Positions 4,599 through 24,575 of a stretch of 44,814 nt of DNA are shown here, in pieces; the first letter of the stretch is position 1; each line of letters begins with the position of its first letter. The stretch is taken from the IMG/VR virus record IMGVR_UViG_3300005913_000014, positions 1-44,814 of that record; one strand, written 5' to 3'. The notes below the pieces were generated by a model. The model saw only the letters and a program-made list of their open reading frames with translations. It was not told the DNA's origin and did not search any database. The translations under genes and the position numbers were made by a program. Origin of the DNA: a virus.

Positions 4599-4618
4599 TT
4601 TTCACGTAAACATTTTCA

Positions 4619-4825: not shown

Positions 4826-4827
4826 GT

Positions 4828-7392: not shown

Positions 7393-7394
7393 CG

Positions 7395-8450
7395 TTAGAA
7401 TTCTGCGTCTGGATAAAATAGTTTAAGAGTAATTGGGATTGGCTTGGTTTCTACTGTTCCACAACTTGGGCATTCGAAATCATAATCCATATTTAGTCCT
7501 GGCTCAATTTTCTTGAGTTCATCTCGGAAATACTTAGAGTCTTGCATTGGCATAGCCTCCACATAGCTTTTGATATACACCTTGTCGCGCTTCCCATTTA
7601 CTTCCATGATGTGAAGAAGATATTTGTGGGTAAGTGATTTTGAAATCTTAAATCTACCTTTTTTAAAATCCTGCTGTGCATACTTGTTGATTATGGATTC
7701 ATCTGCTCCTGTCAACAGTCTAAACTTGATTGGGACTTTAAGTTGCTTCATTTGAAGTGAAAACTCTCCCATATCATCTGGCTTATGTTTTACTTCGTTT
7801 GCTTTTAACTTTGATAAATCCACTATTGGAGCATGTGCCTTGCCGCAGCTGCCACATGCTCTTGGGCCTGGCTCATAATCGTCGCCAAGTCCAGTTCTTC
7901 TAAGTTGAATCAAAACATAATTGCGGTCGCCCGTTAGCATGTCTATTGGTCTGATGTCTTTATCTATGACAGATGCATCGAGGAGCGCATCTAATTGTTC
8001 GTTAGCTCGAATCAAACCTATATCATAAAGGATGTCATCTTCTGTTGCTGTAAGATGCTTTATTGTGACGGTAGATTTTCCTCCTTTGTAAAAGTATCCA
8101 CGAGACGGGAGGTCAATTTCTTCGGTTGGTGCCTGGAAGAAATCCCCAACGTCTTCTGCTCGAATGTTGTTTCTAGTTGCGACCTGTGCTTTTTCCGCCT
8201 CTTCCTCTTGTTTCTTATCTGCTGACTCCGCTTTTGAAATCATTAGATACTTTTCAGCTTGGTCTTTAGGGATTCCCATTTTGGTTAACAAAGTAGGAAT
8301 GTCTTTGTCTTCTGTTCCTTGGTCTTTTAAAGCTTGAATTATAGCTCTAACCTCTCCTGGGTCAACATTTCTTTCAGAGAGATTTTCAAATGTATCATCG
8401 GTCTTGACAGGGTTGTCTTTTCTTTTGCCAATTTCTATTTTCTCACTCAT
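7395..8450 (-). CDS. gp26-like baseplate hub assembly protein, copy 1
   Basis: 351 residues. The N-terminal ~100 residues are acidic/helical and resemble a disordered linker (AESADKKQEEEAEKAQ). The rest parallels the downstream paralogue: LPSRGYFYKGG, a strand segment with TEDDILYDIGLI, then CGSCGK and CPSCGT Cys pairs that could bind one zinc. Length exceeds T4 gp26 (about 208 residues), mainly because of the N-terminal extension. Tandem paralogues of this baseplate family suggest a hetero-oligomeric hub or chaperone pair. A CATATTTATAGC element lies 22 nt upstream of the start. Confidence 0.65.
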   Translation of the reverse strand: MSEKIEIGKRKDNPVKTDDTFENLSERNVDPGEVRAIIQALKDQGTEDKDIPTLLTKMGIPKDQAEKYLMISKAESADKKQEEEAEKAQVATRNNIRAEDVGDFFQAPTEEIDLPSRGYFYKGGKSTVTIKHLTATEDDILYDIGLIRANEQLDALLDASVIDKDIRPIDMLTGDRNYVLIQLRRTGLGDDYEPGPRACGSCGKAHAPIVDLSKLKANEVKHKPDDMGEFSLQMKQLKVPIKFRLLTGADESIINKYAQQDFKKGRFKISKSLTHKYLLHIMEVNGKRDKVYIKSYVEAMPMQDSKYFRDELKKIEPGLNMDYDFECPSCGTVETKPIPITLKLFYPDAEF

Positions 8451-8470
8451 TAATTGAATATTTATGTTCA

Positions 8471-8483
8471 GCTATAAATATGG
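8471..8483 (-). promoter_or_regulatory. Late-promoter-like element (CATATTTATAGC)
   Basis: Minus-strand TATTTATA core, 22 nt before ATG 8450, in the 62-nt gap after the 140-residue gene. Confidence 0.5.
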
Positions 8484-8512
8484 AGTTCTAAAAAAAATAA
8501 AATAAAGGTTTT

Positions 8513-8935
8513 TTAAGTATTGGTTATACTTGAATCCAAATCTACTTGAGAAGATGTTTGTGACATCTGGTTGACCCTGTCTTTATAGTCTTTATTTTGC
8601 TGATTCATCTTCCCCATTGTGGCAAGAACTCTGCCAAGTTCTTCTTCCTGGTCATCAGTTGACTCAATTTCGTCTTCAATGCCATCCATTTTTGTTTTAT
8701 CAGTTTTTTTCATCATTGTGTTGATTGACTTATCTGGATGCACTTGAATACCCTGCTGCTTCTTTAAGCTGTTGAGACTTTTTTCTTGGTCTTTTTTTCG
8801 CTGCTGAGCCACAGCAATTAAATCCTCAATTGATTCTGGAGAATATTCTAGCTCCTCGCCATTATCTGCCCCAATATTAGAATACTCCAATAAGTATTTG
8901 CGAATTTCGCTTCGTATGTATGACTCGTTGTTCAT
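8513..8935 (-). CDS. Hypothetical helical acidic protein, 140 residues
   Basis: Starts MNNESYIRSEIRKYLLEYSN and is then almost entirely polar and charged, with Gln/Lys/Glu/Asp-rich helical segments (LIAVAQQRKKDQEKSLNSLK) and low hydrophobicity. No recognised domain. Its start overlaps the stop of the upstream endonuclease gene by one base (TAATG), indicating translational coupling. It could be a small scaffold or chaperone of the baseplate block, but this is only positional. Confidence 0.6.
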   Translation of the reverse strand: MNNESYIRSEIRKYLLEYSNIGADNGEELEYSPESIEDLIAVAQQRKKDQEKSLNSLKKQQGIQVHPDKSINTMMKKTDKTKMDGIEDEIESTDDQEEELGRVLATMGKMNQQNKDYKDRVNQMSQTSSQVDLDSSITNT

Positions 8936-9393
8936 TATTGTTCTTTATTGTATTGTTCAAAATGCTCACACACAGAACTGTAATTTTCATTGATGTCTTT
9001 TTCCCATACTCTTTCCAGAACGTAACCCAACCCCCGTGCAAGGCTGTCTTTATAGAGGTCGTTCTTTTTGTTCTTAATTTGCATATGATTTAGCTCCCCC
9101 TCGGTATAGACTTTTGGATTTCCATGGTAGTAATCTCCATCAATCTCCACTAAAACATTATAGTCTGGTAGGTAAAAATCATAAATCACATCGTTAAGAA
9201 TTCTTTGAGGTTCGCAATTCACACCCATCTTCTTCATCATCTTTTCAAATTTCTTTTCTGGGGCGGTCATCTTTTTGGTCATTGCCGCAGCTTGCCCTTC
9301 CATATATTTTTTCTTGTTTATCTCATGCTGGTCTTTATACAAGTCTTTATACATCTGCTTCTTTAACCACGCGGCTTTCTTCTGCATGCTCAT
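8935..9393 (-). CDS. Vsr-like endonuclease (stand-alone homing-type)
   Basis: 152 residues. The C-terminal ~90 form a very-short-patch-repair-like nuclease core: DFYLPDYNVLVEIDGDYYHG gives the D...E-x-D-x-Y-x-H active-site arrangement. It is followed by NHMQIKNKKNDLYKDSLARG and the terminal strand/helix VLERVWEKDI. The N-terminal ~55 residues are basic and helical, probably DNA-contacting. The same core (E-x-D-x-x-H, QIKNKK-x-D) occurs in the endonucleases inside the fractured polymerase gene, so this is likely a related stand-alone homing endonuclease placed between tail genes. It has its own CTATTTATG element 14 nt upstream of the start. Nuclease identity is fairly sure; homing role is inferred. 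Confidence 0.75.
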   Translation of the reverse strand: MSMQKKAAWLKKQMYKDLYKDQHEINKKKYMEGQAAAMTKKMTAPEKKFEKMMKKMGVNCEPQRILNDVIYDFYLPDYNVLVEIDGDYYHGNPKVYTEGELNHMQIKNKKNDLYKDSLARGLGYVLERVWEKDINENYSSVCEHFEQYNKEQ

Positions 9394-9401
9394 CGTTCTG
9401 T

Positions 9402-9418
9402 GTTTATCATAAATAGGG
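9402..9418 (-). promoter_or_regulatory. Late-promoter-like element, left half of divergent pair
   Basis: The minus strand reads CCCTATTTATGATAAAC, with 14 nt between its TATTTATG core and ATG 9393. It mirrors the plus-strand element at 9436-9451, giving an inverted repeat with 16-bp arms and a 17-bp spacer. Confidence 0.6.
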
Positions 9419-9435
9419 CAAAATGGTTTCGTTTG

Positions 9436-9451
9436 CCTATTTATGATAAAC
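9436..9451 (+). promoter_or_regulatory. Late-promoter-like element, right half of divergent pair
   Basis: The plus strand reads CCTATTTATGATAAAC, upstream of the PAS gene (ATG 9480, 34 nt after the TATTTATG octamer). Identical to the minus-strand element at 9402-9418. Confidence 0.6.
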
Positions 9452-9479
9452 CTTTAAATTAAAAAATAGTTTGCCGTTT

Positions 9480-10706
9480 ATGGAGAGCAATATTAACATA
9501 GAACTTCTTAAATCACTCACGGAAAAACTTAATCGACGCGACAAAGATATTCTTGATTCAGAAAAAATGTTTAGAGGTTTTTTTGAAAACTCTTCAGCTG
9601 GAATGTGTATAGCAAATGTTGAAGATGAAATGTTTATTAAAGTTAATTCTGTTTTTTGCAAGTGGTTAGGATACTCTGAAGAGGAATTGCTATCATCTCC
9701 TATATTGTCTTTTATTTCTCCGAACAGTGTTGATAAAACTAAAGCTGTTTTGACTAAGCTAAAAAAAGGTATTGAGAGTGTTATTGAAGGATTTGTGAAT
9801 GAATATCTCCATAAGGATGGTCATAGCGTTTGGTTAAAATGGAATTCTTCAATTCCTGATAATAATGGGATTAATTACAGCGTTTGTGCGAACATAACAA
9901 CAGAAATTCAACAAGCTATAAAAATTAGTAAACAAGATAAAATTTACAAAGTTTTAACTGAAAGTAGTCACGAAGCTATTTGCTTGCATGACACCAAAGG
10001 AAATTATATATACGTTTCTCCTTCTTACGAAAAGCTTTTTGGATACAGTCAAAGTGACATGGTTGAAAAAAATGCTTATGATTTTGTGTTGCCTGAAGAT
10101 GTTGAAAGAATAAAAAAAGAATCACACAAACCTTTGATGAAAAATAAAGATTTTCAAATTGCAAGGTTTCGACTTCGACATAAAAAAGGGTATTATGTGT
10201 GGGTAGAGTCTTGTTCGAAGCCGATACTTGAAAATGGAGAAATTACTGAAATAAGGACTAGCACTAAGGTGATTACAGAAGTTATAAAATCTGAAAAAGA
10301 AGCTTTTATAAACAGGGAAATATATGAGAAAATTCTTCATAACACTCGTGAACTTGTGAAAGTGTATAAAATAAACGATGGCCCTCCGTCTTTGGTTTAC
10401 ATATCTCCCTCTTGTTTAGAATATACTGGATATGCTCCTGAAGAGCATGTAAAACAAAGTTTATCAGAATTGATTCATCCAGAAGATGAAGAAAAAACAA
10501 TGAAAAAAATGTTAAGTGTTTTGAATACAAAAAAAACACTTATTGTAAAGTACAGAGGGAAGCATAAAACAAAAGGTTATAAGCTAGCAAGCAGCATAGT
10601 AAGTCCAATATTGAATGAAGAGGGAGAAGTGAGCTATATTGTTTTGTCTAGCAAGGTAATCCAAGAGTTAAATAACGATAAACATAACAGTGAAGATGTC
10701 GGATAA
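9480..10706 (+). CDS. Triple-PAS-domain sensor-like protein
   Basis: 408 residues consisting of three consecutive PAS/PAC units and nothing else recognisable. PAS1 (about 24-140) contains FENSSAGMCIANVEDEMFIK and LGYSEEELL. PAS2 (about 150-262) contains YVSPSYEKLFGYSQSDMVEK and the PAC-type RHKKGYYVWVESCSKPIL. PAS3 (about 275-390) contains LVYISPSCLEYTGYAPEEHV. PAS domains bind ligands or partners and normally feed a kinase, cyclase or HTH output; no such output domain is present. The next gene, overlapping by 11 nt, encodes a coiled-coil membrane protein that could be the partner. ATG 9480 is preferred over an in-frame TTG at 9471. The plus-strand pair is isolated among minus-strand genes. 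Confidence 0.85.
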   Translation: MESNINIELLKSLTEKLNRRDKDILDSEKMFRGFFENSSAGMCIANVEDEMFIKVNSVFCKWLGYSEEELLSSPILSFISPNSVDKTKAVLTKLKKGIESVIEGFVNEYLHKDGHSVWLKWNSSIPDNNGINYSVCANITTEIQQAIKISKQDKIYKVLTESSHEAICLHDTKGNYIYVSPSYEKLFGYSQSDMVEKNAYDFVLPEDVERIKKESHKPLMKNKDFQIARFRLRHKKGYYVWVESCSKPILENGEITEIRTSTKVITEVIKSEKEAFINREIYEKILHNTRELVKVYKINDGPPSLVYISPSCLEYTGYAPEEHVKQSLSELIHPEDEEKTMKKMLSVLNTKKTLIVKYRGKHKTKGYKLASSIVSPILNEEGEVSYIVLSSKVIQELNNDKHNSEDVG

Positions 10707-11127
10707 CCAAGAAAAAAATGGATGGAACGAATGGTCAAAGCACATCATTCGTGAATTAGAACGTTTAAATGAAAGCTCTGAAAAACTTCGTGAAGGCATT
10801 CAAGATAGTAATTTAGAGATAACAAAACTTAAAGGACTAGAGAAAGAAATTGTTGAGCTAAAATCAGGAGTAACGTCAATTAAAAATGAGATAGAAAAAT
10901 CCTCTTACAAATTTCAAGCCCGTGTAGATGAAAGAATAAAGACTCTGATTAAAGAAATTAACGAAAATGTAGTTGAAGTTAAAAATTCAACAGACAGCCT
11001 CATTGAAAGAATTTCTAAACTTGAAGACTACAAAAGCTACATAGTAGGGATTGGAGTTGCTGTCGGTATAATAATAACCTTTATTATATCAGTATTAGCG
11101 CTTTTTGACTGGGGTTCTATCACTTAA
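10696..11127 (+). CDS. Coiled-coil, tail-anchored membrane protein
   Basis: 143 residues from ATG 10696 (an in-frame GTG at 10690 is the alternative). Residues ~10-115 are heptad-like, rich in Glu/Lys/Leu/Ile (ITKLKGLEKEIVELKSGVTS) and predicted coiled coil. One hydrophobic helix near the C-terminus (YIVGIGVAVGIIITFIISVL) is followed by a few residues, giving a tail-anchored topology with the coiled coil in the cytoplasm. The start lies inside the end of the PAS gene (11-nt overlap), so the two products are made together. This is inferred to be the membrane partner of the PAS protein. Spanin or holin roles are less likely given the long coiled coil and absent signal peptide. Confidence 0.7.
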   Translation: MSDNQEKNGWNEWSKHIIRELERLNESSEKLREGIQDSNLEITKLKGLEKEIVELKSGVTSIKNEIEKSSYKFQARVDERIKTLIKEINENVVEVKNSTDSLIERISKLEDYKSYIVGIGVAVGIIITFIISVLALFDWGSIT

Positions 11128-11177
11128 TATTTGTCGTCTTTGACTAAAACCACAGTGTGTTGAATAGCGTATGATTC

Positions 11178-11900
11178 TTAGCAACCAGGGCCGCTCTTTG
11201 CTTTGAGTGGAAATGAGAGGAATGCTAAAAAGTTTGGCTCAACGGTAATGAATAAGTTTTTCCACCAGTATCCGTATCCGAATTTCTCTTTCATTATTTC
11301 TCCCACAACTTTCCTAGCTTTTTTAGGTACTATTACAGTCTTTACAGAAGTGCCCTCAATTATGTGTGCAGCTCTTTTTCGGCCTTTTATTCTTTCAATG
11401 TAATTCATCTTCTCCCACCATTGTATTAGCGTTTGAGATTGGGTTCTGCTAATTTCTAATTCATTGGAAATAAGCGTTACAGACATGCTCACAAATTCTC
11501 CCTTAATTTCAGTACGATTTTCTTTATTCACTTCATTGAAGCGGTTGCTAATCTCGTTCTTAAGGCTAGAGTGGACGTGATGTATCTGTCTTGCTTTGTA
11601 CTCAACTAATTTTAGAAGCAGCAGCTTCTTCATTTCAGACACAGTGGTGATATTTCTACCTTGTGTATCTATCGTGCATCGATGTTTAACTATGAGCCCG
11701 TTAATTGGCTTTTCTACTTTGTTATGAGAGACCATTTGGAGGTTGCCGTGGTGAAATTTAGCAAGACCCCATTTAATCATCGTTGGAACACATCTCCTAA
11801 GGATTGAAACGGATATACCAAGCTTTTCCGAAGCAGACCTCCAGGAAAAATTATAAATTACAGGGGATTTTTTGAATCGCCCTCGAATTAGGTAATACAA
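11178..11900 (-). CDS. Putative helix-turn-helix DNA-binding protein
   Basis: 240 residues from TTG 11900. Two segments look like helix-turn-helix units: SASEKLGISVSILRRCVPTM (N-terminal part) and LISNELEISRTQSQTLIQWW (about 145-165), each followed by a basic wing-like region. The product could be a regulator or replication-type DNA-binding protein; family not recognised. The frame stays open upstream of the TTG to about 12014 and its translation there (YYIKTNEGVIGHFHYRNALD) looks like coding sequence, yet it contains no ATG, GTG or TTG. The true start may be a rare codon such as ATT 11984, which overlaps the upstream stop, or the start may have been lost. It is convergent with the membrane-protein gene. 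Confidence 0.55.
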   Translation of the reverse strand: MYYLIRGRFKKSPVIYNFSWRSASEKLGISVSILRRCVPTMIKWGLAKFHHGNLQMVSHNKVEKPINGLIVKHRCTIDTQGRNITTVSEMKKLLLLKLVEYKARQIHHVHSSLKNEISNRFNEVNKENRTEIKGEFVSMSVTLISNELEISRTQSQTLIQWWEKMNYIERIKGRKRAAHIIEGTSVKTVIVPKKARKVVGEIMKEKFGYGYWWKNLFITVEPNFLAFLSFPLKAKSGPGC

Positions 11901-11979
11901 AGCCAGAGCGTCTAAAGCATTCCTGTAATGGAAATGACCTATAACGCCTTCATTTGTCTTGATATAATATCTCGTTTTC

Positions 11980-12342
11980 CTAATTGTCGTAAAATTGAGA
12001 GTTGTCCTCTTGTTGTTTTATATGTGGGCACACGACGATGGTCTGTTGTAAAACATTTAACACCCTCATCATAGCTCCTAAATCGTACATCTTATATTCT
12101 CGACAAAGCTTATGAAAATCATTTTCACAAACGTATCTAAATGTTGGTTGTCCGTCGATTTCAAGTCGAAGAGGAAAATAATCCCATCCGTCTTGCATCA
12201 TGCTGTTTTTGTACAATAACGTGCCATTGGCTCGCATTCGCCGAGTTGTCCCTATTGATGCGATTATACCGCCTGATTCTTTTGATTCCTCCAAGTTATT
12301 CAAGAGGTGTTTGTCAAACCAATAATGTTTCTTCATATGCAT
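11980..12342 (-). CDS. Hypothetical protein, 120 residues
   Basis: Begins MHMKKHYWFDKHLLNNLEES; a second ATG two codons on is equally plausible. Mixed alpha/beta composition with aromatic and basic residues (GWDYFPLRLEIDGQPTFRYV) and a short polar C-terminus. No domain recognised. The start overlaps the 3' end of the polymerase C-terminal fragment by 29 nt, so it is probably in the same transcription unit and might serve replication. Its TAG stop overlaps the open frame of the next gene. Confidence 0.55.
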   Translation of the reverse strand: MHMKKHYWFDKHLLNNLEESKESGGIIASIGTTRRMRANGTLLYKNSMMQDGWDYFPLRLEIDGQPTFRYVCENDFHKLCREYKMYDLGAMMRVLNVLQQTIVVCPHIKQQEDNSQFYDN

Positions 12343-13405
12343 GCATTACTGTTGTTAATTTAACTCTTCCGTTAAAGTTTAAAAATCCTTTTTCGTTTCG
12401 TTTGAATTTGCCTACGTATACAGCTTGTTTCTGTAGCTGAGGAAGAAGTTTTTCACTAATTGGAGAAAATATATTGAACTTTACAGTGTCAATACCATCG
12501 CTTCCATGTATAGAGATAAAGTCTTTTCCTTTTTTAGTTTTCTTAAATAAGATATCATTGATAATAAACCAGTAAAAACCTTCTTCAGCATAATGTGGTA
12601 GTGGAAGAATAGCTTCTTTCGACTTGTCACTCATTTCCCCCATTCGGGTGTGAATAATTGAAACTCGATTAATTTCTTCCATATCAAAACCACATACTCC
12701 CATAAATTCATCTTGCTTTTCAATATCGGAAGTTGCTGCGTATTTTAAATGGTCTATTCTATGAGTGTACTCGATATCATCCATGTCGAACATTGCAAAC
12801 TGCGAAGCGTCTTTAGGTTTTTTCTTCCTGTTTTTATCTCTTAGAAACATTAAATATTCTCTAGAAGTGCTCCAGTCATCAAACATTCCCGCTTGTAAAC
12901 AAGAACGAAAAGAAGTCTTGTTGAATTTAGTGAAGGGTATATCAAAAAAAGCAGCCATAGATATTTCGCTAAATTTCTTCCCTTTTATTGCTAAATTATC
13001 TTTCAACTCTTTATAAGCAATATCTCCCATCCCAGTCATGCTAGAGAAACCCATTGTGATTTCGTTGGGGCCAGTCATCGACCATCTCCATATTGAGAAT
13101 CTAGTCGGAGGTTTTATAGTGATTCCTCTAGATATTGCAGCGGTGATTGTCTGAGTCAGCCATTGTTTTTCTTTCTCCTTTCCAGCGTTTGAAGACTTTT
13201 GCTCGTTCAATAGCGCTGTATAAAAGTATACTGGGTAGTAATGCTTTAAGTATAAAGTTTGCATAGCGATGTATGCGTATGAAACCGAGTGACTATTTGA
13301 AACACAGATATCATTTGCATAGAAGTTGTGATGTTCATTATCGATTTCTAAATCGTAAGTATCTACCACTCCTATTTCTTCAACTTCTATAATAGATTCA
13401 AACAT
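12314..13405 (-). CDS. dnaE: DNA polymerase III alpha, C-terminal fragment with split-intein C half
   Basis: 363 residues. Residues 1-37 are an intein C-terminal half with VDTYDLEIDNEHHNFYAND and terminal VSN. From Ser38 the extein begins SHSVSYAYIAMQTLYLKHYY, which matches the conserved helix-hairpin-helix/finger region of bacterial DnaE (typical FNKSH...AYA...YLK..YP). It continues ~326 residues to a C-terminal OB-fold-like segment (INDILFKKTKKGKDFISIHG). On its own this piece lacks the catalytic palm, so it must be ligated to the 14410-16032 product. The penultimate intein residue is Ser rather than the usual His. The start overlaps the homing endonuclease gene by 19 nt. Confidence 0.9.
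   Translation of the reverse strand: MFESIIEVEEIGVVDTYDLEIDNEHHNFYANDICVSNSHSVSYAYIAMQTLYLKHYYPVYFYTALLNEQKSSNAGKEKEKQWLTQTITAAISRGITIKPPTRFSIWRWSMTGPNEITMGFSSMTGMGDIAYKELKDNLAIKGKKFSEISMAAFFDIPFTKFNKTSFRSCLQAGMFDDWSTSREYLMFLRDKNRKKKPKDASQFAMFDMDDIEYTHRIDHLKYAATSDIEKQDEFMGVCGFDMEEINRVSIIHTRMGEMSDKSKEAILPLPHYAEEGFYWFIINDILFKKTKKGKDFISIHGSDGIDTVKFNIFSPISEKLLPQLQKQAVYVGKFKRNEKGFLNFNGRVKLTTVMHAYEETLLV
13295..13405 (-). other. Split intein 2, C-terminal half
   Basis: 37 codons encode the intein C half with block F-like EHHNFYAND and terminal Asn (13297-13295) followed by +1 Ser. Its partner is the N half at 14413-14694. Length is close to other split-intein C halves (about 35-40 residues). Confidence 0.88.
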
Positions 13406-14376
13406 TTTATTTTGTTTTTTATAATTGACTCGTTATTAATTATATCATTCTCCCACAATTCTATAAGCTGAAAACTCCCGTCACTTTCAACTGCATGCCT
13501 TTTTTTTATATCTCTTTTCTTGTTCTTTATTTGAACATCATGAGTACACCCGCTATGTCTTGTATTTTGATTACTATGAAAAAAATCTCCCTGTACTTCT
13601 ATTAAAATGCTTCCTATTCTAAAGTCAAAAGAATAACCATAACAAGAAAACTCTTCTTCCCATGTACCTTTGAATTCTTTAGCGTGATTTGATTCAGAAT
13701 AAGTATCTTTTCCAAATCGTTCACTTAGCATTCTCTTTACCTCAAGATGAGGTTTTGATTGACCATGAGAATAGACACCACTTTTGTATCTAGCTATCGT
13801 TATATCTCTAAGGCGCTGTTTAGTTTCTTCTGAATGTTTAAATCCAGTATGACCATGTATTTCTCTTTTTTTAGCACTCTCTGACATGCGCTCAAGTGTT
13901 TCATTGCTGAATTCAACGCCTTTTCTGCGCTCAGAAAGCTTTTTCATGACTTCATTATTATCTTTAGTTTTTCCTTTGTTCCAAGCTTTTATACCGTACA
14001 TAGGGTTTCCTTTTCCTTTGCGTTCTTCCTTCATTCTTTCGACGTGAAGTTTATATTCTTTATTATTTTCCGCCACGTACTTAGCAGTTTCTGTTGTAGT
14101 ACAATTATTCGAAAATTTACCGAAAACAATAGAGCCTTGAAGTTTGTAACTAGGCTTATCTCCTGTAATCGGACACAAAGGAGTTGTAATGGATTCTGGA
14201 AGCAAATCTACCAAACTCTTCCCATAAACACTTTTGTGATAATAATTTGATATCTCAGAATTGTAGTAGTTGTTGTTTTGTCTAATTAAAACTAATGACA
14301 ACTTTGCCCTCCATTTTTTCATATCAATATCTTCGCCATTCACTATATCCTTTTTGAAATCGATTTTTACTTTCAT
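13387..14376 (-). CDS. Vsr-like homing endonuclease with NUMOD-type repeats (second break of dnaE)
   Basis: 329 residues between the two halves of split intein 2. The middle carries NUMOD3-like DNA-binding motifs (KGKGNPMYGIKAWNKGKTKD, about 118-138; GHTGFKHSEETKQRL, about 175). The C-terminal ~90 residues are a Vsr-like nuclease: FDFRIGSILIEVQGDFFHS supplies D...E-x-D-x-x-H and is followed by DVQIKNKKRDIKKRHA and LIELWENDI. The placement is that of 'fractured genes', where a free-standing endonuclease separates split-intein genes. Expected role: cutting intein-less alleles to spread the insertion. Starts 33 nt after the stop of the middle dnaE fragment. Confidence 0.8.
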   Translation of the reverse strand: MKVKIDFKKDIVNGEDIDMKKWRAKLSLVLIRQNNNYYNSEISNYYHKSVYGKSLVDLLPESITTPLCPITGDKPSYKLQGSIVFGKFSNNCTTTETAKYVAENNKEYKLHVERMKEERKGKGNPMYGIKAWNKGKTKDNNEVMKKLSERRKGVEFSNETLERMSESAKKREIHGHTGFKHSEETKQRLRDITIARYKSGVYSHGQSKPHLEVKRMLSERFGKDTYSESNHAKEFKGTWEEEFSCYGYSFDFRIGSILIEVQGDFFHSNQNTRHSGCTHDVQIKNKKRDIKKRHAVESDGSFQLIELWENDIINNESIIKNKIKCLNLL

Positions 14377-14409
14377 AATATATAGTATATAGACTGAGAT
14401 TTGTTAAAA

Positions 14410-16032
14410 CTAGTTTATTTTTACAGAAAGCTTTTGTTCAATAATATCTTTCAGAGGTAACATACCTTGTTCAGTCATTATTTTATGGTCCAAAGTGCAT
14501 TCTAAAATTTTCCCACTACTTGTCTTAATTCGATAAACTTTCTTTTTACCGTTGTTATGACGAGCTTTCACTGGAACCCATTCATTTTTTTTCGTGTCTG
14601 GATTATAACCTAAAATCATATCTCCTGGCCTAGTTTTTAAAAGAGATATTTTTCCCTTTTCCTTTTCTGTGACTTCACAGTTTTCAGATAAACATTTGTT
14701 AAACGAATACCCTAGATAATCAGAAAGGTATAAAAGGATTTTATCAACCTCTTCTTTCGGAACACCATTTTCCTCTGCTCCAGATACAAACTTACTCCAA
14801 TACTCTTCGTAAGCTTTATAGTTCTTACTTTCCTTTTCGTCCTGAGTGAGTTCTTCTCCTTGGTTTGTTTTTTTTATAAGCTTCGCAGCTTTATCAAGTG
14901 CACGACGCAAGTTATCACCCTCTCCTAAATCCATTCCCGCTATCTCTTTTGCGATAAATTGAATTTGCTCCTGAAACACCAGTACACCGTTAGTTTTTTC
15001 TAATATTGGCTTTATCAAATCAGATGGAAATTCAATCTGTCCTGGGAACCTCTTGTTATCAACGTATTGACGGTGGGCTCCAATTCCCATTGGGCCTGGT
15101 CGATAAAGAGCATTACAAGCAGCCATTTCTTCAAAGTTCTCAACGTTGAGTCCTCGAATCAAAGCGTTCATGCCTGGCGATTCAAATTGGAATATACCGT
15201 GGTTCTGACCAAGCATTAACTCCTTGTAAAGGTTTTGGTCATCAAACTGCTCATCAATATTCATTATTGTATCGAACAAATCAATCTTTTCACCATCCTT
15301 AACCATCTTGATACAATCCATGATGATATTAATTGTTGACACTTTCAAACGGTCAAGCTTCAATATCCCAAGATAACTCAAGTCTTTTCCAGAGCGGTCC
15401 CCCTCTTGATATGCTGATACAATTGATTTATTAGAGACAATCATATTTGTTGGGAGGTAGTCCCAAGAAGGCCCAGGAGTAATAACAACTCCAGCGGCGT
15501 GTTTACCAAAACCTCTCACTTGACCCTGAAGAGCCAGTGTTTGTTCTATAATTACTTTGTTGGATGAATCAGTAAGCCATCTTTGTACGAGTGGACTGCA
15601 ATCATCTGACTGAGCATGGTTTTCTAACCACCAAGCCAAGTTGTATTCGACTTTGTCGAACTTCGGCATCTCTTTAGTGATTTGAGCTACATCCGATTCA
15701 GTTCCTGTTGCTTCTGGCCCACGGTGTGCACGAACAACGTCCTTCAAACATCCTCTTTCATTCCATTTAGAAAAAGTACCAACACTCATTACTCGTTCTC
15801 TACCATATTTTTTGTAAAGGAAGTCATCAGTTTCATGGTCTGTTCCTGTTTGAAAATCAATATCTAAATCGGGAGGGCTATTGTGTATGATTATCAGTGA
15901 GTTACACTCTTTATTTAAAGCTTTACTAGAAGTAGATTTGACCATAAAATATGGGTCCCCTTCAAAAGATAAGTCATAAACTGGCCCGTCGTACTGTATC
16001 TTGCGTATTGACTTTATGCTGACTGTCTTCAT
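14410..16032 (-). CDS. dnaE: DNA polymerase III alpha, middle fragment flanked by two split-intein halves
   Basis: 540 residues in three parts. (1) An intein C half of 51 residues ending SLIIIHN. (2) A 395-residue extein starting SPPDLDIDF, which holds the two catalytic Asp of the polymerase palm. It contains other DnaE landmarks: FGKHAAGVVI, GILKLDRLKVSTINI (third Asp), GIFQFESPGMNALI, NALYRPGPMG and GVLVFQEQIQ. It ends YLGYSFNK. (3) An intein N half of 94 residues starting CLSENCEV with TLDH (block B). ATG 16032 is chosen because it begins the intein half and overlaps the upstream endonuclease stop as ATGA; an in-frame start at 16083 would add 17 unrelated residues. Must be spliced at both ends. 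Confidence 0.92.
   Translation of the reverse strand: MKTVSIKSIRKIQYDGPVYDLSFEGDPYFMVKSTSSKALNKECNSLIIIHNSPPDLDIDFQTGTDHETDDFLYKKYGRERVMSVGTFSKWNERGCLKDVVRAHRGPEATGTESDVAQITKEMPKFDKVEYNLAWWLENHAQSDDCSPLVQRWLTDSSNKVIIEQTLALQGQVRGFGKHAAGVVITPGPSWDYLPTNMIVSNKSIVSAYQEGDRSGKDLSYLGILKLDRLKVSTINIIMDCIKMVKDGEKIDLFDTIMNIDEQFDDQNLYKELMLGQNHGIFQFESPGMNALIRGLNVENFEEMAACNALYRPGPMGIGAHRQYVDNKRFPGQIEFPSDLIKPILEKTNGVLVFQEQIQFIAKEIAGMDLGEGDNLRRALDKAAKLIKKTNQGEELTQDEKESKNYKAYEEYWSKFVSGAEENGVPKEEVDKILLYLSDYLGYSFNKCLSENCEVTEKEKGKISLLKTRPGDMILGYNPDTKKNEWVPVKARHNNGKKKVYRIKTSSGKILECTLDHKIMTEQGMLPLKDIIEQKLSVKIN
14413..14694 (-). other. Split intein 2, N-terminal half
   Basis: 94 codons starting with Cys1 (TGT, 14694-14692) directly after extein FNK. 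Contains block A (CLSENCEVTE), RPGDMILGYN and block B CTLDHKIMT, then ends at a stop codon. It lacks blocks F and G, which are found 1 kb downstream at 13295-13405. Confidence 0.88.
15880..16032 (-). other. Split intein 1, C-terminal half
   Basis: 51 codons with GPVYDLSFEGDPYF (block F-like, but without the usual His) and terminal IIIHN, followed by +1 Ser of SPPDLDIDF. Its partner is the N half at 17422-17709. Confidence 0.88.
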
Positions 16033-17093
16033 TGAATTGCTTTTTTTAAGGTAGCTTTTACTTCTTCTCTGTTTTTGTCCCAATCATGTTCCCATATGAT
16101 AAAAACACGATATCCTGTTATCTTTTTAATTTGCTTAATTCTCTGTTCGTCAATCTCCCAAAGTTGTCCTGCTGTTTTCTTTTTATGAGGATGAAAGTAA
16201 TCTGCTTTAAACTTTAATGGATTACAGTGCCAATAGTCTCCATAAAATTCTACTATAATACGGTTTTTAGGATTATAAAAATCTACATGATATGCTTTTT
16301 TGTTTTCAACATCAGCAACTATAATTTGTTGATTTTCACTTTCATCATAAAAACTCGAATCAATAAGCTTTAAATCAGAAACAAGGTATTCAACGAGTTT
16401 TTGCTCTTTTTTAGAACTCCCACTTCCAAAGTTGACTTGGATTTCATGTTGCACATTATCACTGTGGAATATATTCTCAACTCCATATTTTTCCATCATT
16501 GTTTCAGTCACAGCACTATAATGACTTCCTCTGTTTAAAAACCAAGGCACCCCGTATTTGTCTTGAATGGATTTAGATATCTTATCTCTAACTTCTTGTA
16601 TTTGTACTGGAGAAGTTAACCCTGTTGTTCCATAAGTTTCATTTAATCCTTTTTGATATTTTTCTCTATAACCTTTTGTTCGATAGTATATTTTTTTGTA
16701 ATCACCGTGCTTCATATAAAACCCATGCTCCCAAAAAAACTTTCCCCCTCTAGAAGGATGGAGTTTGTGACGTATTTTTTTGTTATAAATTTTTGTAAAA
16801 TATTCAACTTGACTCCCAGTTAAAGGGTAGTTTTTAGTATCCACCTCCAATCTCATCTGCGTCTTACCACGGTCAATGATGTAATGAAAACCAGTGATGA
16901 CACCAGTTTTTTTATTATCTCTAATTAACATAGCTCCAATAATGCAAGAAGGAGAAACAGCTAAACCACACTTATATGGCCACTCTTTGATTTCTTTTTT
17001 TGTTGGAACAGCATGAATAAGAGAAGTCTCACGAAGTCTTTGGTCGAGTTCCGCTTTTGTAATATCTTCTATGCTTAATAATAAATCTATCAT
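16029..17093 (-). CDS. Vsr-like homing endonuclease (first break of dnaE)
   Basis: 354 residues between the halves of split intein 1. The C-terminal ~100 residues form a Vsr-like nuclease: YHVDFYNPKNRIIVEFYGDY continuing WHCNP gives D...E-x-x-D-x-W-H. It is followed by a helix with ADYFHPHKKKTAGQLWEID and the strand YRVFIIWEHDWDKN. This resembles the Vsr-type endonucleases associated with environmental split inteins. The N-terminal ~200 residues contain repeated K-x-Y-G-V/T-W motifs (DKYGVPWF, EKYGVENIF) probably used for DNA recognition. Start and stop each overlap the neighbouring genes by ATGA, so it is translationally coupled to both. Predicted to drive spread of the split intein. Confidence 0.85.
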   Translation of the reverse strand: MIDLLLSIEDITKAELDQRLRETSLIHAVPTKKEIKEWPYKCGLAVSPSCIIGAMLIRDNKKTGVITGFHYIIDRGKTQMRLEVDTKNYPLTGSQVEYFTKIYNKKIRHKLHPSRGGKFFWEHGFYMKHGDYKKIYYRTKGYREKYQKGLNETYGTTGLTSPVQIQEVRDKISKSIQDKYGVPWFLNRGSHYSAVTETMMEKYGVENIFHSDNVQHEIQVNFGSGSSKKEQKLVEYLVSDLKLIDSSFYDESENQQIIVADVENKKAYHVDFYNPKNRIIVEFYGDYWHCNPLKFKADYFHPHKKKTAGQLWEIDEQRIKQIKKITGYRVFIIWEHDWDKNREEVKATLKKAIQ

Positions 17094-17422
17094 TTTAGAA
17101 AGTCTTTATCTATAGATAGGCTCGGATTTTTAAACTCCAGTTCATACAGCCCCCAAAGCGCTTCTGCAATCTCATTTCCTCTTTCATCAATATTGTCAAA
17201 CCACCCCTTCTCATTAGAGGGTATTTTGTGGGTATCTCTCGCGTTAATTCTTCCAATATCATGAGAGCCTTTATTGGAAGACATTGACATTATAATGTGG
17301 TCTAAGAATATTCTCACCTGCTTATCCCATTCTGTTGGTTTTTGCCAAGCTGGAATTATAAGTTTAGAACCTTCTTGACACATACCTTTAAAATTAATAT
17401 CTCTACTTCCTTGTACTATCAT
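17090..17422 (-). CDS. Hypothetical protein inside first dnaE break, 110 residues
   Basis: Begins MIVQGSRDINFKGMCQEGSK; polar, with several Trp residues and a C-terminal segment NEIAEALWGLYELEFKNPS. No nuclease, intein or known domain seen. Its start overlaps the stop of the first polymerase fragment by ATGA and its stop overlaps the endonuclease start by ATGA. It is therefore part of the inserted cassette and co-translated with it. It may be cargo of the mobile element or a phage gene captured in the break. Function unknown. Confidence 0.65.
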   Translation of the reverse strand: MIVQGSRDINFKGMCQEGSKLIIPAWQKPTEWDKQVRIFLDHIIMSMSSNKGSHDIGRINARDTHKIPSNEKGWFDNIDERGNEIAEALWGLYELEFKNPSLSIDKDFLK

Positions 17423-19608
17423 AATTTTCGTATTAACATTTTATCTGTCTCTAATAACTCATCCACGCGAATATCAACACGCTCTCCTTTGCGCATCACA
17501 GGTACAATGTGATTCCCCGTCAATTTTACAATGATGGAATCTTCAGTTTCAATCTCAAACACCTCATCAGCTGGTGTGATATCTCGCTTATGCACTTGAA
17601 CCAAAACGCCGTTGCCTGATTCTGTTTCAACTGGGTCCCCAGGAACAATATCTCCGATAGGTTTCAGTGAGCCATCTTTCATCAACACCAGCCCATCTTC
17701 AGTAACGCAATTACGTGCTGGATTCAAAAAACGCTCAAAATACAGCCCGAATTGAATAGGGTCAATCTTAGTGATGTCAAGACACCATGCTAATAAAGAA
17801 CCAGCTGCAGAGCCTCTTCCACTTCCAATTTCAAAACCTCTTTTCTTATAATCTCGAATAATTTCCCAGTTTACAAGGAAGTAGTCAAGCATCTTCTTGT
17901 CCTTAATTACTTTTAACTCGTAATGGAGTCTATTTGTGTACTCATCTACAACCTCTTGTGTTTGTTGTAATTTTCCTTTGGTAAACTTACGTCCGAGCTT
18001 TTGCTTGAGTTTCGCAAAAGCCATCTTTGTGATAATGGTTTCCGTGTCCTCTGCTCCTGCCCAATCTATAATGTCTTTCGTTGGTTCGTAACGAGGGTAT
18101 TTTTCAACCCCTACTTCAAATTCAAAATTGCAACGCTCAGCCAGCTTCAAAGTGTTATCCATGAATATCTGTAGAATGTTGTGCGGGTAATTGTATCCAA
18201 ATTTTGAATTCAGAACATAGTAGTCTTTTCTCGACAAATAATACAGATTTCTTCGTTCCTCTAAACGACACTTATCCATCCCTATTTGTTGTTTTATAGC
18301 GGAAACAGTGTCTTGCAAAGACGCTTCTTTTTGCTTAACATAATGAACATCATTATCTAAAATCACCATTGCCTTCGTGGCGGATGCCATTTTTAAAACA
18401 AAGTTGTTAAATCGCTTTTGCTCACCAATCTCTGAAAACTTAATTTCTGCGATATAATCTGGGCCAAATGCTTTTTGTAATCGTTCCCAATATTTAGAAG
18501 CTGCCGTCTTTTGTCCTTTAAAAAACAAACTTGCGAGATATCCTTGGTAGTTTCCAGTGGTAACAATCAAACCTTCTTTGTTCTCAATTAACCAATCAGT
18601 GTGAATACGAGAATACATCCCATCAAAACCTTCTGAATGAGATTTAAATATCAGCTTATTAAGGTTTACAAAACCCACTTGGTTTTTAACAATGATTTTT
18701 ATTGGGTATCCACCTTTTTCTGACTCTTCGGAGCCAACAGTATCGTTGAGATAGATTTCAATTCCAAATATTGGCTTGATTCCGTATTTTTCAGCTTTCT
18801 GTGACAACTCTAGACTGCCTGACATGGTTTCGACATCAATAACAGCGAGAGATGTGTGCCCTAGTTCTTTAGCACGCTTAAGATAATTATCAATACTACC
18901 TGAGCCACGAAGCAAGCTATAGTGAGTGTGACAAGAGAAATGAACTAACGGCTTAGCTTCCTCTTCTGGGGATACCGATACGTGGGCAACACTCTCAGAA
19001 GAAAACCCATTAGAGGAATCGGAAGGAAGTTCTTTAAATCCGAAAATGCCAAGCCGTTGAAGTTCAAAAAAACATTTAGCGGTTGCTTGCACATCGAAAA
19101 ATGCGTTGTGAGCACCTAAAAAGTCTTTCCCAAAAAGCTTATTATGGAGCTCAATAAGTTTTGGAAATTTATAACCCCGACGACCCCTTAATTTACAAAA
19201 GTCAATTGTAAGCTTCATCGTGTCAACGGGAAATATTGAAGCTAGATTGTGACTCATCGATGCTCGATGAAATTCACACCCCATAATTCCAAGGTCAAAA
19301 TTGATATTATGTGCTATGAGGTAATAGTTACGCTCTAGAGCAATTTTAAACTGATTTAAGGCATCAAGCATAGAAATTCCTTCTGCGTGCGCCTTTTCGT
19401 TTGATATGCCGTGTATTTGAACGACTTCGTGAGGAATGTTGTATCCTTCAGGTTTAATTATAAGGTCGTGCCTGGATATTTCGCTGCCGTCTTGTGCATA
19501 TTCAACCCAGGCTAACTGTACTAGTCGAGGCCAGTTATCTGCATCTGTCCAAGGTGCGTTAAACCGTTTTGGCCTGCCAGTAGTCTCTGTATCGAAGACT
19601 ATATACAT
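17419..19608 (-). CDS. dnaE: Exonuclease-PHP-DNA polymerase III alpha, N-terminal fragment with split-intein N half
   Basis: 729 residues. Residues 1-190 are a DnaQ/epsilon-like 3'-5' exonuclease: FDTETTG (D6, E8), AHNINFD (D105) and H167-x4-D172 (HNAFFDVQAT). Residues ~220-290 are the PHP domain (HFSCHTHYSLL, YGIKPIFGIEIYL), but the usual TDH is VIDV, so a metal ligand is lost. Residues ~590-633 hold GSGRGSAAGSLLAW and FERFLNPARN, the region just before the polymerase active site. From Cys634 a 96-residue intein N half follows (CVTEDGLVLMKDGSLKPIGD, block B LTGNH). Built-in proofreading plus degenerate PHP suggests a self-sufficient phage replicase. A Bacteroidota-type promoter lies just upstream. 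Confidence 0.92.
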   Translation of the reverse strand: MYIVFDTETTGRPKRFNAPWTDADNWPRLVQLAWVEYAQDGSEISRHDLIIKPEGYNIPHEVVQIHGISNEKAHAEGISMLDALNQFKIALERNYYLIAHNINFDLGIMGCEFHRASMSHNLASIFPVDTMKLTIDFCKLRGRRGYKFPKLIELHNKLFGKDFLGAHNAFFDVQATAKCFFELQRLGIFGFKELPSDSSNGFSSESVAHVSVSPEEEAKPLVHFSCHTHYSLLRGSGSIDNYLKRAKELGHTSLAVIDVETMSGSLELSQKAEKYGIKPIFGIEIYLNDTVGSEESEKGGYPIKIIVKNQVGFVNLNKLIFKSHSEGFDGMYSRIHTDWLIENKEGLIVTTGNYQGYLASLFFKGQKTAASKYWERLQKAFGPDYIAEIKFSEIGEQKRFNNFVLKMASATKAMVILDNDVHYVKQKEASLQDTVSAIKQQIGMDKCRLEERRNLYYLSRKDYYVLNSKFGYNYPHNILQIFMDNTLKLAERCNFEFEVGVEKYPRYEPTKDIIDWAGAEDTETIITKMAFAKLKQKLGRKFTKGKLQQTQEVVDEYTNRLHYELKVIKDKKMLDYFLVNWEIIRDYKKRGFEIGSGRGSAAGSLLAWCLDITKIDPIQFGLYFERFLNPARNCVTEDGLVLMKDGSLKPIGDIVPGDPVETESGNGVLVQVHKRDITPADEVFEIETEDSIIVKLTGNHIVPVMRKGERVDIRVDELLETDKMLIRKL
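17422..17709 (-). other. Split intein 1, N-terminal half
   Basis: 96 codons from Cys1 (TGC, 17709-17707) after extein NPARN to the stop. Block A CVTEDGLVLM, IVPGDPVETE, and block B VKLTGNHIVP are visible. No blocks F/G follow in this gene; they are at 15880-16032. Confidence 0.9.
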
Positions 19609-19662
19609 GTTGTTGAATTAGTGTGTTGCCGAAGCAAATATAATTCAATTTTAAGTTATAAT
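19609..19662 (-). promoter_or_regulatory. Leader and promoter -7 region of dnaE
   Basis: The minus strand carries TATATTTGC (19642-19634), matching the Bacteroidota -7 consensus TAnnTTTG. GTTGG (19667-19663) lies 20 nt upstream in the -33 position. The implied leader to ATG 19608 is under 25 nt and has no Shine-Dalgarno sequence. Confidence 0.55.
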
Positions 19663-19709
19663 CCAACTTTAGTTTAAAACTAATTCATTGAATCTATGAG
19701 GATTGAAGG

Positions 19710-19728
19710 GTTAATTATACTAATTAAC
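19710..19728. repeat. Inverted repeat, possible operator
   Basis: GTTAATTA and TAATTAAC arms are perfect over 8 bp with a 3-nt spacer, about 70 bp upstream of the dnaE -7 box. Confidence 0.45.
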
Positions 19729-19803
19729 AGCTGTTTAGCCTGTCGTGAGACTACTTAAATTTATTGTTGGATAGCCGTTGTAATCCCAGTTTGGAGCTCG
19801 TGT

Positions 19804-19842
19804 TGTCATTCATCAACATAATCATACCGACGTTGATTGACA
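19804..19842 (-). terminator. Hairpin after the post-portal gene
   Basis: Nested arms TGTCA/TGACA and ATCAAC/GTTGAT enclose a 14-nt loop, directly after the stop at 19845. There is no strong T-run, so it may be a processing or stabilising structure rather than a true terminator. Confidence 0.35.
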
Positions 19843-19844
19843 AG

Positions 19845-20099
19845 TTATTCGTAATCTGAGTCGTAGTCTTGTCGTTGCTTCAGAATGTCTCTAGATAAAT
19901 CTTTTAAAGCAGCATGTATACGCCGAAGGCGGGAACGACTTCTCGTTCCCGCCGATTTCGTTTTTCGGTAGCTGTAAAATTTAGTTACATCAGTGGAATA
20001 AAGGTCCTCTAGTTCCTCTATAATCTTCGCTAGTTTACGCTTTACACTGTACGTGTCATTAACATTTGAGTGTTCATCAAACTTACTCTTCCTCGTCAT
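19845..20099 (-). CDS. Small basic protein downstream of portal, 84 residues
   Basis: From ATG 20099 (an in-frame TTG at 20111 is less likely). Highly basic and helical: VKRKLAKIIEELEDLYSTDV, then KTKSAGTRSRSRLRRIHAAL, then an acidic tail. It overlaps the portal stop by 17 nt. In T4-type phages small prohead-core genes (67, 68) follow the portal gene, so a scaffold or internal DNA-contacting protein is possible. No sequence motif proves it. Confidence 0.55.
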   Translation of the reverse strand: MTRKSKFDEHSNVNDTYSVKRKLAKIIEELEDLYSTDVTKFYSYRKTKSAGTRSRSRLRRIHAALKDLSRDILKQRQDYDSDYE

Positions 20100-23000
20100 A
20101 GTCTTCTTCAATTATTTCCATATCAGAATTTTGCCCAGTTTCAGATATTATTTGGTCAATCTCATCCATTATATCTCTAGCTTTTCTTGCTAAATCATTA
20201 CTGGTAGAGACAAGAGGGTTTCCTTGAACTCTTTCTTTTATTACTCCTTTTGGTATAATGTAATTTTCAATATTTTTCTCAGATTCTTTTAAATTTCCCT
20301 TTATCTCACTAATCATTTTATCAGTCTGACTGATAAATTCTTCGTTTGATTTAAACAAAACGTTTTTTTCTCTGTCTTTCTTTTCTTCCTCGCTTTCTTC
20401 CGTAAATACTTCTTCATCGGTTTCCTCAAGCTCTTTAAGCAAGTCATCAATTGCACTATCAACACGCTTGTTGTGACCTTCCCAAATGCGTTCTCTTTTA
20501 GTTTCTGATATAGGCTCGCTATCACTTACTGGAGGCGCTCCTCCTGCATCGCCTCCAACTTCATCTCCACCTCCCATATCAAGGTCTCCAGATGGGTCTC
20601 CAGCCAGCGAGTCTCCTCCTCCGCCAAAGCCTCCGCCGCCGCCGCCGCCGTCATCTCCCATTAAATCTTCGTTCTCAGCGTTTTGGAGTGCTTCTGCTGC
20701 TCCTGGGATTTCAAATTTATCATCCAAATCTTTGAACAATCCAATCTTTTTGTATGTCTGCGGAGCAAATTCAATCTCCGTAAACAGTTTCCTTTCAACT
20801 TTTTTCTGACGAAGCATTTTCTTGATATCCTTTTCAGAAAATCCAAGAATGTATTTCATACCCCAAGTGTAAGAAGCAGGTGAGTAGATATCTTGTGACA
20901 CAAACAATGTAAATACTTCAAGTCGAGATTTCATCGTCTCTAGCTTCAACAGCTCTTGTTGAGTAGAAGGGTTTGTGAGTTTTAAATCAAAATCATTAAT
21001 CTCGTCTTCATGCCCAAGAAACGCTAAGTGAATTTTACCAATTCGACGAAGTTCCATTAGAACTTGCTCCTGGATTCTATTAATGGTCCTAGCAAATCTT
21101 AAATCTGCTTGAGACAGTGTTGGCCCCCCAGGTAAATTCTCAGCATAATTCAAATAAGTTTTTGGAACCTTTAACGCCGCGAATAGTTTATTTTCTAAAT
21201 ATTCAATATCTTGAATGTCACCTAGATTGCTATTTTGTGTAAAAACTCCGACAGAAAGTGCAAAATTATGGTGGTCATGTAGTTCATGATTTCCATCTAC
21301 AGTTATTGTGCCTGTGTCTTGAGGTGTTTCTAGCCACTCAATCGATGCCACTTTATGATTAAATAATTCGGCTTTTTTCGTGAAATCTCTCCAGTTAGAA
21401 TACCCAAATGACTTCATCATCTTCACTAAGTTATTGTGGGTGAAAGATGACATTTTCTTCAATTGCTTGTTCCCTTTGTTTATGTTGTTAAATTCAGACA
21501 TAAACCCAGAATTAGAGACATTAATGTCTCGTAGAATGTTGGTGGCACTCATGCCGTCTTGAAAACGAGAGACCACAAACTCCAACATTACATCGTTGTA
21601 ATTTATTTCTTGTTTTTCTTGAATGGCTTCACGCAGAGAACCATCGGCCCATTGTTTAGAAGCGGCAATAGATGATTTTAGACGAGAAGAAGATGTTTTT
21701 CTTGCTTTACGATATCCAGCTATTCGTTTCTTTTCAAAATCAGCTTTAAAATCTTCATCTTGCAGTAGCTCTTGAATTCGTTCTGTTGCTTTTTCTAAGT
21801 TGATTCGTGCTACTACTCTTTTAGATTCTAATTCTTTCTCAGAGATATTATCCCAATACTTATTTCTACCTTCTTTACGCTCTTTTTTATAAGAAGCATA
21901 CATAGATTGATGAAGCATAACATGGTCATGGAAATTCATTAATTTTAAATTCTCTGGAGAATTATTGTATCGGTCAAAATCATAATGATGAATCACGTTT
22001 TTGTTTTCCACATTTTTTTGATAAACATGTTCCTTGTGCAAATTGCGCTCATACATGTAATTATGAACCATACGATGTGTATACTCCCAGGATTTGCTTT
22101 GGTGGTCCCACACTTGTTCATATGTTTTAGCTTTAGGTTTGTTTTTGAAAATCTTCTGAAACCTCTTCTCAAAACTCCACATAGAATCTCCTTCTTCAAG
22201 ATTTTGTGCTTCTTGTATACCTTTAAAACGAGTAGGGAACTTGTGGTCAGGTGTAACAATAACAGACTCTCCGTTGTCAAAAGTCAATTTCATTACTTTA
22301 GCGTCTTTACGAGTAACTCCAGCCCATGTAATTTTTCCTGGAACTATTACTCCAGTTTCTGGATTTATACTGTAAGTCCAAAGCTGTTTTCCTTCATCAC
22401 GCTCTTTAATGATTTCCTGAAGCTCAAGGCTTCGACCATCAAGAAGGTTGATTTTAGTATCTAGAGCCAAACAAGCTCCAGGAAGTGTGTCAATTTTTGT
22501 GCTCTTGTCACCACGAACTGGAATAAAATAATCTTCCGAGATATTCATTGGGTCATAACGATAACTCATATTGCCGTCGTTCTGATTCACAATAGGCTGT
22601 TTTTTAACTTGCTTTTGGATACGCTGCATGTATTGCTTAACATCAGCATCCTCCAAGTTGCCTACCTCAATGTAGAATATTCTACGCTCTGGAGCTCTTG
22701 TGATTCTATAGACCAACATTGAGTCCTCAGCGAGCTGTAGTTGCTTCCAAAGTTTTCTAGCAGGGTCTAAGATAGAGTTGTGAACGACTATCCCATTCGC
22801 ATAGAAATTATGGTGTTCATGCTCTACGTGGATATCATAAACCTGCTCTGCTTTTTCAGAGTTCTCAATAGAGATGATTGGAGATAAGATGAAACCACTA
22901 TTAATCCTATTTGATAACTCATGTTTTGCTGCTTGTTTAATTTTAGAGTCATAAAAGTAGAAGTAGAAACTTTTCTTTCTTTTGTATTCTTTTCCCCAAA

Positions 23001-24546: not shown

Positions 24547-24575
24547 TTTTATTTTTTATTTCATGCCTCTTTGCA

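Follow-up and report, generated by a model that had tools for sequence, protein, structure and literature searches.

How a virus could obtain a working replicase from a gene broken into separate open reading frames (ORFs) is the question raised by IMG/VR virus record IMGVR_UViG_3300005913_000014, of which positions 1 to 44,814 were analysed (44,814 nucleotides; the window). The minus strand of the window carries one exonuclease-PHP-DnaE polymerase gene that is fractured twice by split inteins and lies in three ORFs at 17419-19608 (ORF1), 14410-16032 (ORF2) and 12314-13405 (ORF3). Very probably, homing endonucleases have split the two inteins, and the enzyme is rebuilt from its parts by tandem protein trans-splicing.

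Three open reading frames encode one polymerase

The polymerase portion (extein) of ORF1 (17710..19608, 633 residues) contains a DnaQ-like exonuclease, a PHP domain and the beginning of the DnaE NTPase/palm region, with matches to RNase_T, PHP and DNA_pol3_alpha. That of ORF2 (14695..15879, 395 residues) starts with SPPDLDIDF and comprises the remaining catalytic region and the fingers (DNA_pol3_finger, E 6.9e-40), and that of ORF3 (12314..13294, 326 residues plus stop) starts with SHSVSYAY and forms the C-terminal part of DnaE. The ORF caller placed the start of ORF2 at 16083 (TTG); a likelier start is the ATG at 16032, whose overlap with the stop codon upstream reads ATGA. The matches to phrog_405 run from 38 to 440 in ORF1 (E 7.1e-105), 441 to 793 in ORF2 (E 1e-76) and 793 to 1072 in ORF3 (E 8.3e-24), and this contiguous coverage indicates that polymerase sequence is neither lost nor repeated at the two breaks. 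Similarly, the Pfam DNA_pol3_alpha match stops at profile position 99 in ORF1 and picks up at 99 in ORF2, where it continues to 259. The PHP domain, NTPase/palm, fingers and catalytic Asp motif that mark a DnaE/polymerase III alpha enzyme are thus all present, and the Asp residues of PDLDIDF are invariant in five of five aligned relatives. The initial annotation had proposed that the three ORFs are consecutive parts of one exonuclease-DnaE polymerase, that the four intein halves have a proper Cys1 or a terminal Asn with +1 Ser, and that the rejoined exteins give 1354 residues. The first proposal is correct to the base, all the splice residues are found at both sites, and the exteins sum to the same figure (633 + 395 + 326). 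The rejoined polymerase also aligns across both junctions, as had been expected of it, with DnaE profiles and with uninterrupted homologues such as L022 (1331-codon frame) and L185 (1376-codon frame), and the +1 Ser and the extein junctions match intact homologues exactly. That earlier account of three pieces and two split inteins stands; what it overlooked are the genes inside the breaks, a 110-residue ORF and two nuclease genes of 354 and 329 residues.

Split inteins and nuclease genes at the breaks

Site 1 lies directly before the catalytic PDxDxDF motif. Its N half (17419..17709, minus strand, 96 residues plus stop) begins with Cys1 at the junction NPARN/C, has TGNH as block B and matches TIGR01445 and Hint profiles, and its C half (15880..16032, minus strand, 51 residues) ends in HN before the +1 Ser and is matched by PF14890 at no better than E 9.8e-4. 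Site 2 lies within FNK/SHS. There the N half (14410..14694, minus strand, 94 residues plus stop) begins with Cys1 at FNK/C, has TLDH as block B and matches TIGR01445 above the cut-off (E 1.9e-7) as well as PF14890 (E 3.5e-7), and the C half (13295..13405, minus strand, 37 residues) ends in VSN before the +1 Ser and matches TIGR01443 above the cut-off (E 0.0066). As the two inteins are dissimilar, with N halves 21% identical and C halves 34% identical over 35 residues, they are probably non-cross-reacting.

Break 1 is filled by the 110-residue ORF (17090..17422, minus strand) and nuclease 1 (16029..17093, minus strand, 354 residues), and break 2 by nuclease 2 (13387..14376, minus strand, 329 residues). 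Three ATGA overlaps chain ORF1, the 110-residue ORF, nuclease 1 and ORF2, the start codon of the site-1 C half overlapping the nuclease stop. Nuclease 2 follows ORF2 after 33 nt and overlaps ORF3, and with it the site-2 C half, by 19 nt. The N-terminal part of nuclease 1 is weakly DUF7487-like (29.0 bits, cut-off 27), and nuclease 2 has a weak mid-protein match to NUMOD3 (E 0.0083, below cut-off). In structure models both C-terminal domains resemble Vsr and the catalytic domain of the EDxHD homing endonuclease I-Bth0305I: residues 217-354 of nuclease 1 align with Vsr (1cw0; Z 11.6, root-mean-square deviation (rmsd) 4.2, 119 residues aligned) and I-Bth0305I (3r3p; Z 10.2, rmsd 2.5, 93 aligned), and nuclease 2 does so with Z 12.1, rmsd 3.5 and 126 aligned for Vsr, and Z 11.7, rmsd 3.5 and 93 aligned for I-Bth0305I. 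An E-x3-D-x2-H stretch and a later D, which we take to be the residues of the EDxHD motif, are invariant in five of five nuclease-1 and three of three nuclease-2 sequences. Two results count against the assignment: whole-model confidence is low (mean predicted local distance difference test 65 and predicted template modelling score 0.39 for nuclease 1; 64 and 0.36 for nuclease 2), and a Foldseek search with nuclease 1 returned nothing at E <= 0.001, the best match being Vsr 1cw0 at 3e-3. For the N-terminal parts of both proteins, fold comparison gave nothing usable. On these models and motifs, nucleases 1 and 2 are probable homing endonucleases.

The 110-residue ORF matches no family in Pfam, PHROGs or NCBIfam. 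It was considered as a GmrSD/DUF262 remnant, given a similar IPxxQ..W stretch and a GmrSD gene in the same break of a related locus (L024), and this found no support, as Pfam gives no match to it even at E 1. The gene in L024 (10226-12040; PF03235, PF07510) is of the GmrSD restriction-enzyme type and stands beside nuclease 1 in the site-1 break, possibly as a defence gene riding in a fractured polymerase. In locus L021, a short stretch resembling the 110-residue ORF occurs at the same place.

These features suggest the following course. Inteins would have invaded one polymerase III alpha-type replicase gene at two conserved sites, and where an intein normally carries its endonuclease, each intein gene would have come to hold an independent gene, complete with start and stop codons, for a Vsr/EDxHD-type homing endonuclease. 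As the inserted nuclease genes break the reading frame, three polypeptides would be made, presumably co-transcribed from what appears to be a single operon of overlapping or closely spaced genes. The N and C halves of site 1 and of site 2 would then pair, fold as two inteins and ligate ORF1, ORF2 and ORF3 into the 1354-residue polymerase. In a mixed infection, the endonucleases would cut uninterrupted alleles, and the whole cassette of N half, nuclease and C half would be copied into them.

Other records of the same virus

Both splits are also present in contigs of 63, 92 and 141 kb, which differ from the window by no or one mismatch over 17,671 bp. This identity rules out the sequencing error joining ORFs that the initial annotation had allowed for, as well as an assembly error. 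An artefact of this kind, or an RNA intron in place of the inteins, could be argued from an 11.7-kb contig (L004/L016) in which 1011 bp of nuclease 1 are gone and the polymerase pieces had been reported as a single 1398-residue frame; the first split, both intein-1 halves included, is kept in it, as is the beginning of the second. The reported frame of this contig (G002) was rejected as it is not open: nine in-frame stops lie between the pieces, and 49 between the same pieces in the window. Since the portal gene of this contig is frameshifted too, its deletion may itself be an assembly fault. No Rfam family reaches the gathering threshold in window positions 11000-25000, hence no known class of intron is present, a group I or group II intron included, and intein motifs at the protein level account for the junctions. 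Both artefact and intron are therefore exceedingly improbable.

An alternative is that the polymerase is decaying, the virus no longer using the gene and the splits marking early pseudogenisation. All records of the virus are fragments, and a second replicase could still lie outside them. In those fragments, the DnaE NTPase family (PF07733) is found only as the two halves of the fractured gene (five of five records), PolA in none of four records searched and PolB in none of six, two relatives included; the intact polymerase whose presence elsewhere had been considered in the initial annotation did not turn up in the window or the four other records. The three pieces are all open with conserved motifs, both splits are unchanged in the three further contigs, and the doubly split form recurs in a relative (L109) of about 50% identity. 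Decay is on this evidence very unlikely, and a fractured gene in use is the preferred reading.

The polymerase shares this condition with another gene of the virus. In the 141-kb contig (L199 1768-5957), NrdA is fractured into profile positions 1-395 with an intein N half, a 422-residue ORF, and a C half with positions 392-523; counting NrdA, this would be a virus with three split inteins.

Occupied and empty alleles in related phages

Polymerase-based scans of viral contigs yielded, among the matches listed, 92 classified loci, of which 82 were placed in 43 clusters and ten were set aside because they were incomplete or too far removed (L016, L017, L021, L202, L203, L262 and L276-L279); of at least 67 distant loci (L118-L184), four were mapped. 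Three insertion sites emerge, the third (site 0) lying within a GxGRG/SAAGS motif. The polymerase is uninterrupted at all three sites in 27 of the 43 clusters, 26 of them open over the tested span and one (L117) with a single stop. Site 1 is split in 11 clusters and continuous in none. Site 2 is split in four and holds a continuous intein of 131-133 residues, without a nuclease, in three (L020, L115, L029), and site 0 is split in four and continuous in one (L020; 129 residues). The continuous copies show that the N and C halves at sites 2 and 0 are parts of one intein, and they lend further support to site 2 of the window.

Each site has its own type of nuclease, where presence means a tblastn match at E <= 1e-5 and includes decayed remnants such as those of L275. 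A nuclease-1 homologue is present in 11 of 11 site-1 splits, a nuclease-2 homologue in four of four site-2 splits, and a third type, searched for with the site-0 nuclease of L021 (E0), in three of four site-0 splits, L268 being without one. In L268 and L274 (locus 7221-7833), the site-0 intein halves are parted by a short gap without a nuclease. The overlap of nuclease and C half seen in the window is found in relatives at four of four site-2 loci, at three of the four site-0 loci having a nuclease, and as a true overlap at seven of ten site-1 loci tested, the others being L029 (11-nt gap), L024 (3-nt gap, same frame) and L227 (no clear result). Outside these counts, two polymerases of 25% identity found via the nuclease (L202, L203) have a site-2 split with a nuclease-2 homologue. 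Another distant polymerase (L278, locus 8173-9000; 26-37% identity) is classified as carrying 276 extra in-frame residues at site 2, which may be an intein that includes an endonuclease domain.

Empty and occupied alleles occur in close relatives. Over the ORF2 and ORF3 exteins, L111 and L112 are 96.0% identical, L250 and L275 89.7%, and L185 and L020 84.4%. For L111 and L112, one empty and one split, the DNA can be aligned as far as the insertion point from either side, at 82.1% and 80.8% identity. No relatives were found in bacterial or archaeal genomes. Among isolate phages, all polymerase matches are below 60% identity, nuclease 1 matched 55 records with none covering 80% of it, and nuclease 2 had no match.

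Polymerases in three and four pieces

The double fracture of the window is shared by L109, whose exteins are 43-56% identical to those of the window and whose closest relative, L110 (78%), is uninterrupted. In L021, splits occur at sites 0 and 1, after which the contig ends; the part of the polymerase between them is 34 residues long and has an intein half on each side. A 95-kb contig (L275) is split at all three sites and thus carries the polymerase as four genes, at locus coordinates 3085-5187, about 5622-6113, 6814-8418 and about 8881-9966, with the DnaE NTPase profile in three pieces (2-66, 66-99 and 99-259). Its nucleases have shrunk to fragments (98 residues; 149 + 110; 74 + 68), and all six intein halves retain their splice residues. 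L250, the uninterrupted relative of L275 named above, has no break at any of these sites.

Selection on the inteins and their proposed movement

Across the three sites and all extracted split loci, every one of the 21 N halves has Cys1, and each of the 20 C halves has both the final Asn and the +1 Ser. The N halves are under strong constraint: the ratio of nonsynonymous to synonymous substitution rates (dN/dS) is 0.05-0.16 for most unsaturated pairs at sites 1 and 0, with values up to 0.26 at site 0. It is about 0.06-0.07 for the site-1 N half of L275, where the nuclease is decayed, against L234 and L247, and 0.07 for the site-0 N half of L268, which is without nuclease, against L275. Constraint on N halves whose nuclease is decayed or absent indicates selection on the intein half itself, and not merely on a mobile cassette. 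These results bear on the possibility that the pieces assemble non-covalently into an active enzyme, the intein halves being leftovers. There are parallels for it among split enzymes that have no inteins: assembly of this kind has been proposed for genes in pieces such as a phage ribonucleotide reductase that a homing endonuclease has split, one paper cites a ribonucleotide reductase that functions as two peptides, and in Rossellomorea phage phiT1 (L197) the DnaE annotation is divided between gp20 and gp18, which flank a 150-nt gene, gp19. Leftover halves are, however, at odds with splice residues that no half has lost in any split locus examined, with the constraint on the N halves, and with a +1 Ser and junctions that match intact homologues exactly, and we regard non-covalent assembly as improbable.

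Trans-splicing of the window polymerase, the favoured explanation, has several observations to contend with. The site-1 N half scores below the TIGR01445 cut-off (E 1.5e-4; 22.7 bits against 24.5), the site-1 C half has in all members an insertion of 10-20 residues ahead of the final HN, and site 1 is a continuous intein in none of the 43 clusters; given this insertion and the want of a continuous homologue, splicing at site 1 is the least certain. The site-2 C half ends in SN rather than HN; cyanobacterial DnaE inteins likewise lack this penultimate His, according to a review. Constraint on the C halves is weaker and noisy, with dN/dS of 0.11-0.69 at site 1 and up to 1.05 at site 0 (one 35-codon pair), and dS is near saturation in these comparisons. 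Some inteins are far more alike than their polymerases (L268/L275, 88% against 53%; L112/L234, 76% against 52%), and the intein is the closer of the two in nine of ten pairs at site 0, 31 of 55 at site 1 and 13 of 21 at site 2, a modest excess in a comparison uncalibrated for rate differences and in which the pairs of L109 are affected by a site-1 C half taken too short (34 residues rather than about 51).

On a quickly built tree, in which several forks are weak and the branch to the window is long, the distribution of alleles needs at least five changes of occupancy at site 0, at least ten at site 1 and at least six at site 2, which we read as repeated gain by homing, and probably loss by homing as well. 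The split state may outlive the endonucleases that caused it, as these are decayed in L275 and absent at site 0 of L268. It is likely that invasion by a selfish element here hardens, as in a ratchet of which many stages are represented, into obligate assembly of a multi-piece replicase via two or three simultaneous and mutually orthogonal trans-splicing reactions on three or four chains, including a 34-residue mini-protein with an intein half at each end (L021, L275).

Comparison with known systems

The 'fractured genes' of Dassa et al. 2009 (NAR 37:2560) are reportedly host genes in separate ORFs with split-intein halves at their ends and an endonuclease ORF between, and the title of that work is said to name a new homing endonuclease family, reportedly Vsr-like. 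The overall arrangement is the same in the window, where consecutive ORFs align gap-free to uninterrupted homologues and both breaks have complementary halves and an endonuclease ORF. The window differs in that a single gene, a DnaE replicase, is broken twice (three times in L275) and every break has a distinct intein and a distinct type of nuclease.

The site-2 intein resembles the cyanobacterial split DnaE intein (Ssp/Npu DnaE) in the host protein family, in the place of the split within the intein and in the absence of the penultimate His. The alignment of ORF3 to PRK07373 begins at residue 5, and that of ORF2 to PRK09532 extends through the intein half. The cyanobacterial gene has one break, no known nuclease gene and a +1 Cys, in contrast to the +1 Ser of the window, and its site presumably lies four residues upstream (Y/CFNKSHS) of FNK/SHS. 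The best solved structure for the continuous intein of L020 is gp41-1 (6qaz, E 5e-10), with Npu-type DnaE a weaker match (2keq, E 5e-6).

Split inteins are also described in phage PolB genes: that of phage MIJ3 is in two genes with an HNH nuclease gene between (PMC6892783), and those of phages Aes123 and CP21 are likewise split in two (PMC11923092, PMC12707363). As described, these are PolB genes with one break each, whereas the family described here has two or three breaks in a DnaE/polymerase III alpha gene with Vsr-like nucleases. In their modelled catalytic-domain fold, the window nucleases are like the I-Bth0305I/Vsr (EDxHD) homing endonucleases (PMC3943268), and differ in their DNA-binding parts and in being placed between split-intein halves. 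Joining three segments by two orthogonal split inteins is reported in PMC12707363 as laboratory tandem trans-splicing; what was engineered there is apparently natural in the window.

In the literature searched, which was covered through listings, abstracts and passages, no natural gene with two split-intein breaks was recognised, in keeping with the view of the initial annotation that a doubly fractured replicase is unusual. The components are known; new are their multiplicity in one essential gene, the site-specific pairing with nucleases and the four-piece descendant. Genes that depend on a single trans-splicing intein are known; cutting a replicase in two or three places puts reliance on protein splicing to a much harder test, because enough polymerase is then made only if several ligations each join the correct partners. 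The series, which runs from the whole gene through continuous inteins and splits that hold a nuclease to splits whose nuclease has decayed and to as many as four genes, offers a direct comparison for the origin and persistence of split inteins. In addition, the split inteins that co-exist in one virus, three in L275 and here two in the polymerase plus one in NrdA, are candidates for naturally orthogonal sets with which to join three or four segments, of the sort sought in protein-engineering papers.

Other inteins of the virus

Two further genes of this virus are relevant to its intein content. A T4-like portal gene at window positions 20083-24546 (minus strand) holds a pair of continuous inteins, of which one matches LAGLIDADG and the other, weakly, HNH. 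In the 92-kb contig, a 605-residue ORF (L198 2433-4250), judged by eye to be probably a prohead protease, seemingly holds a continuous intein.

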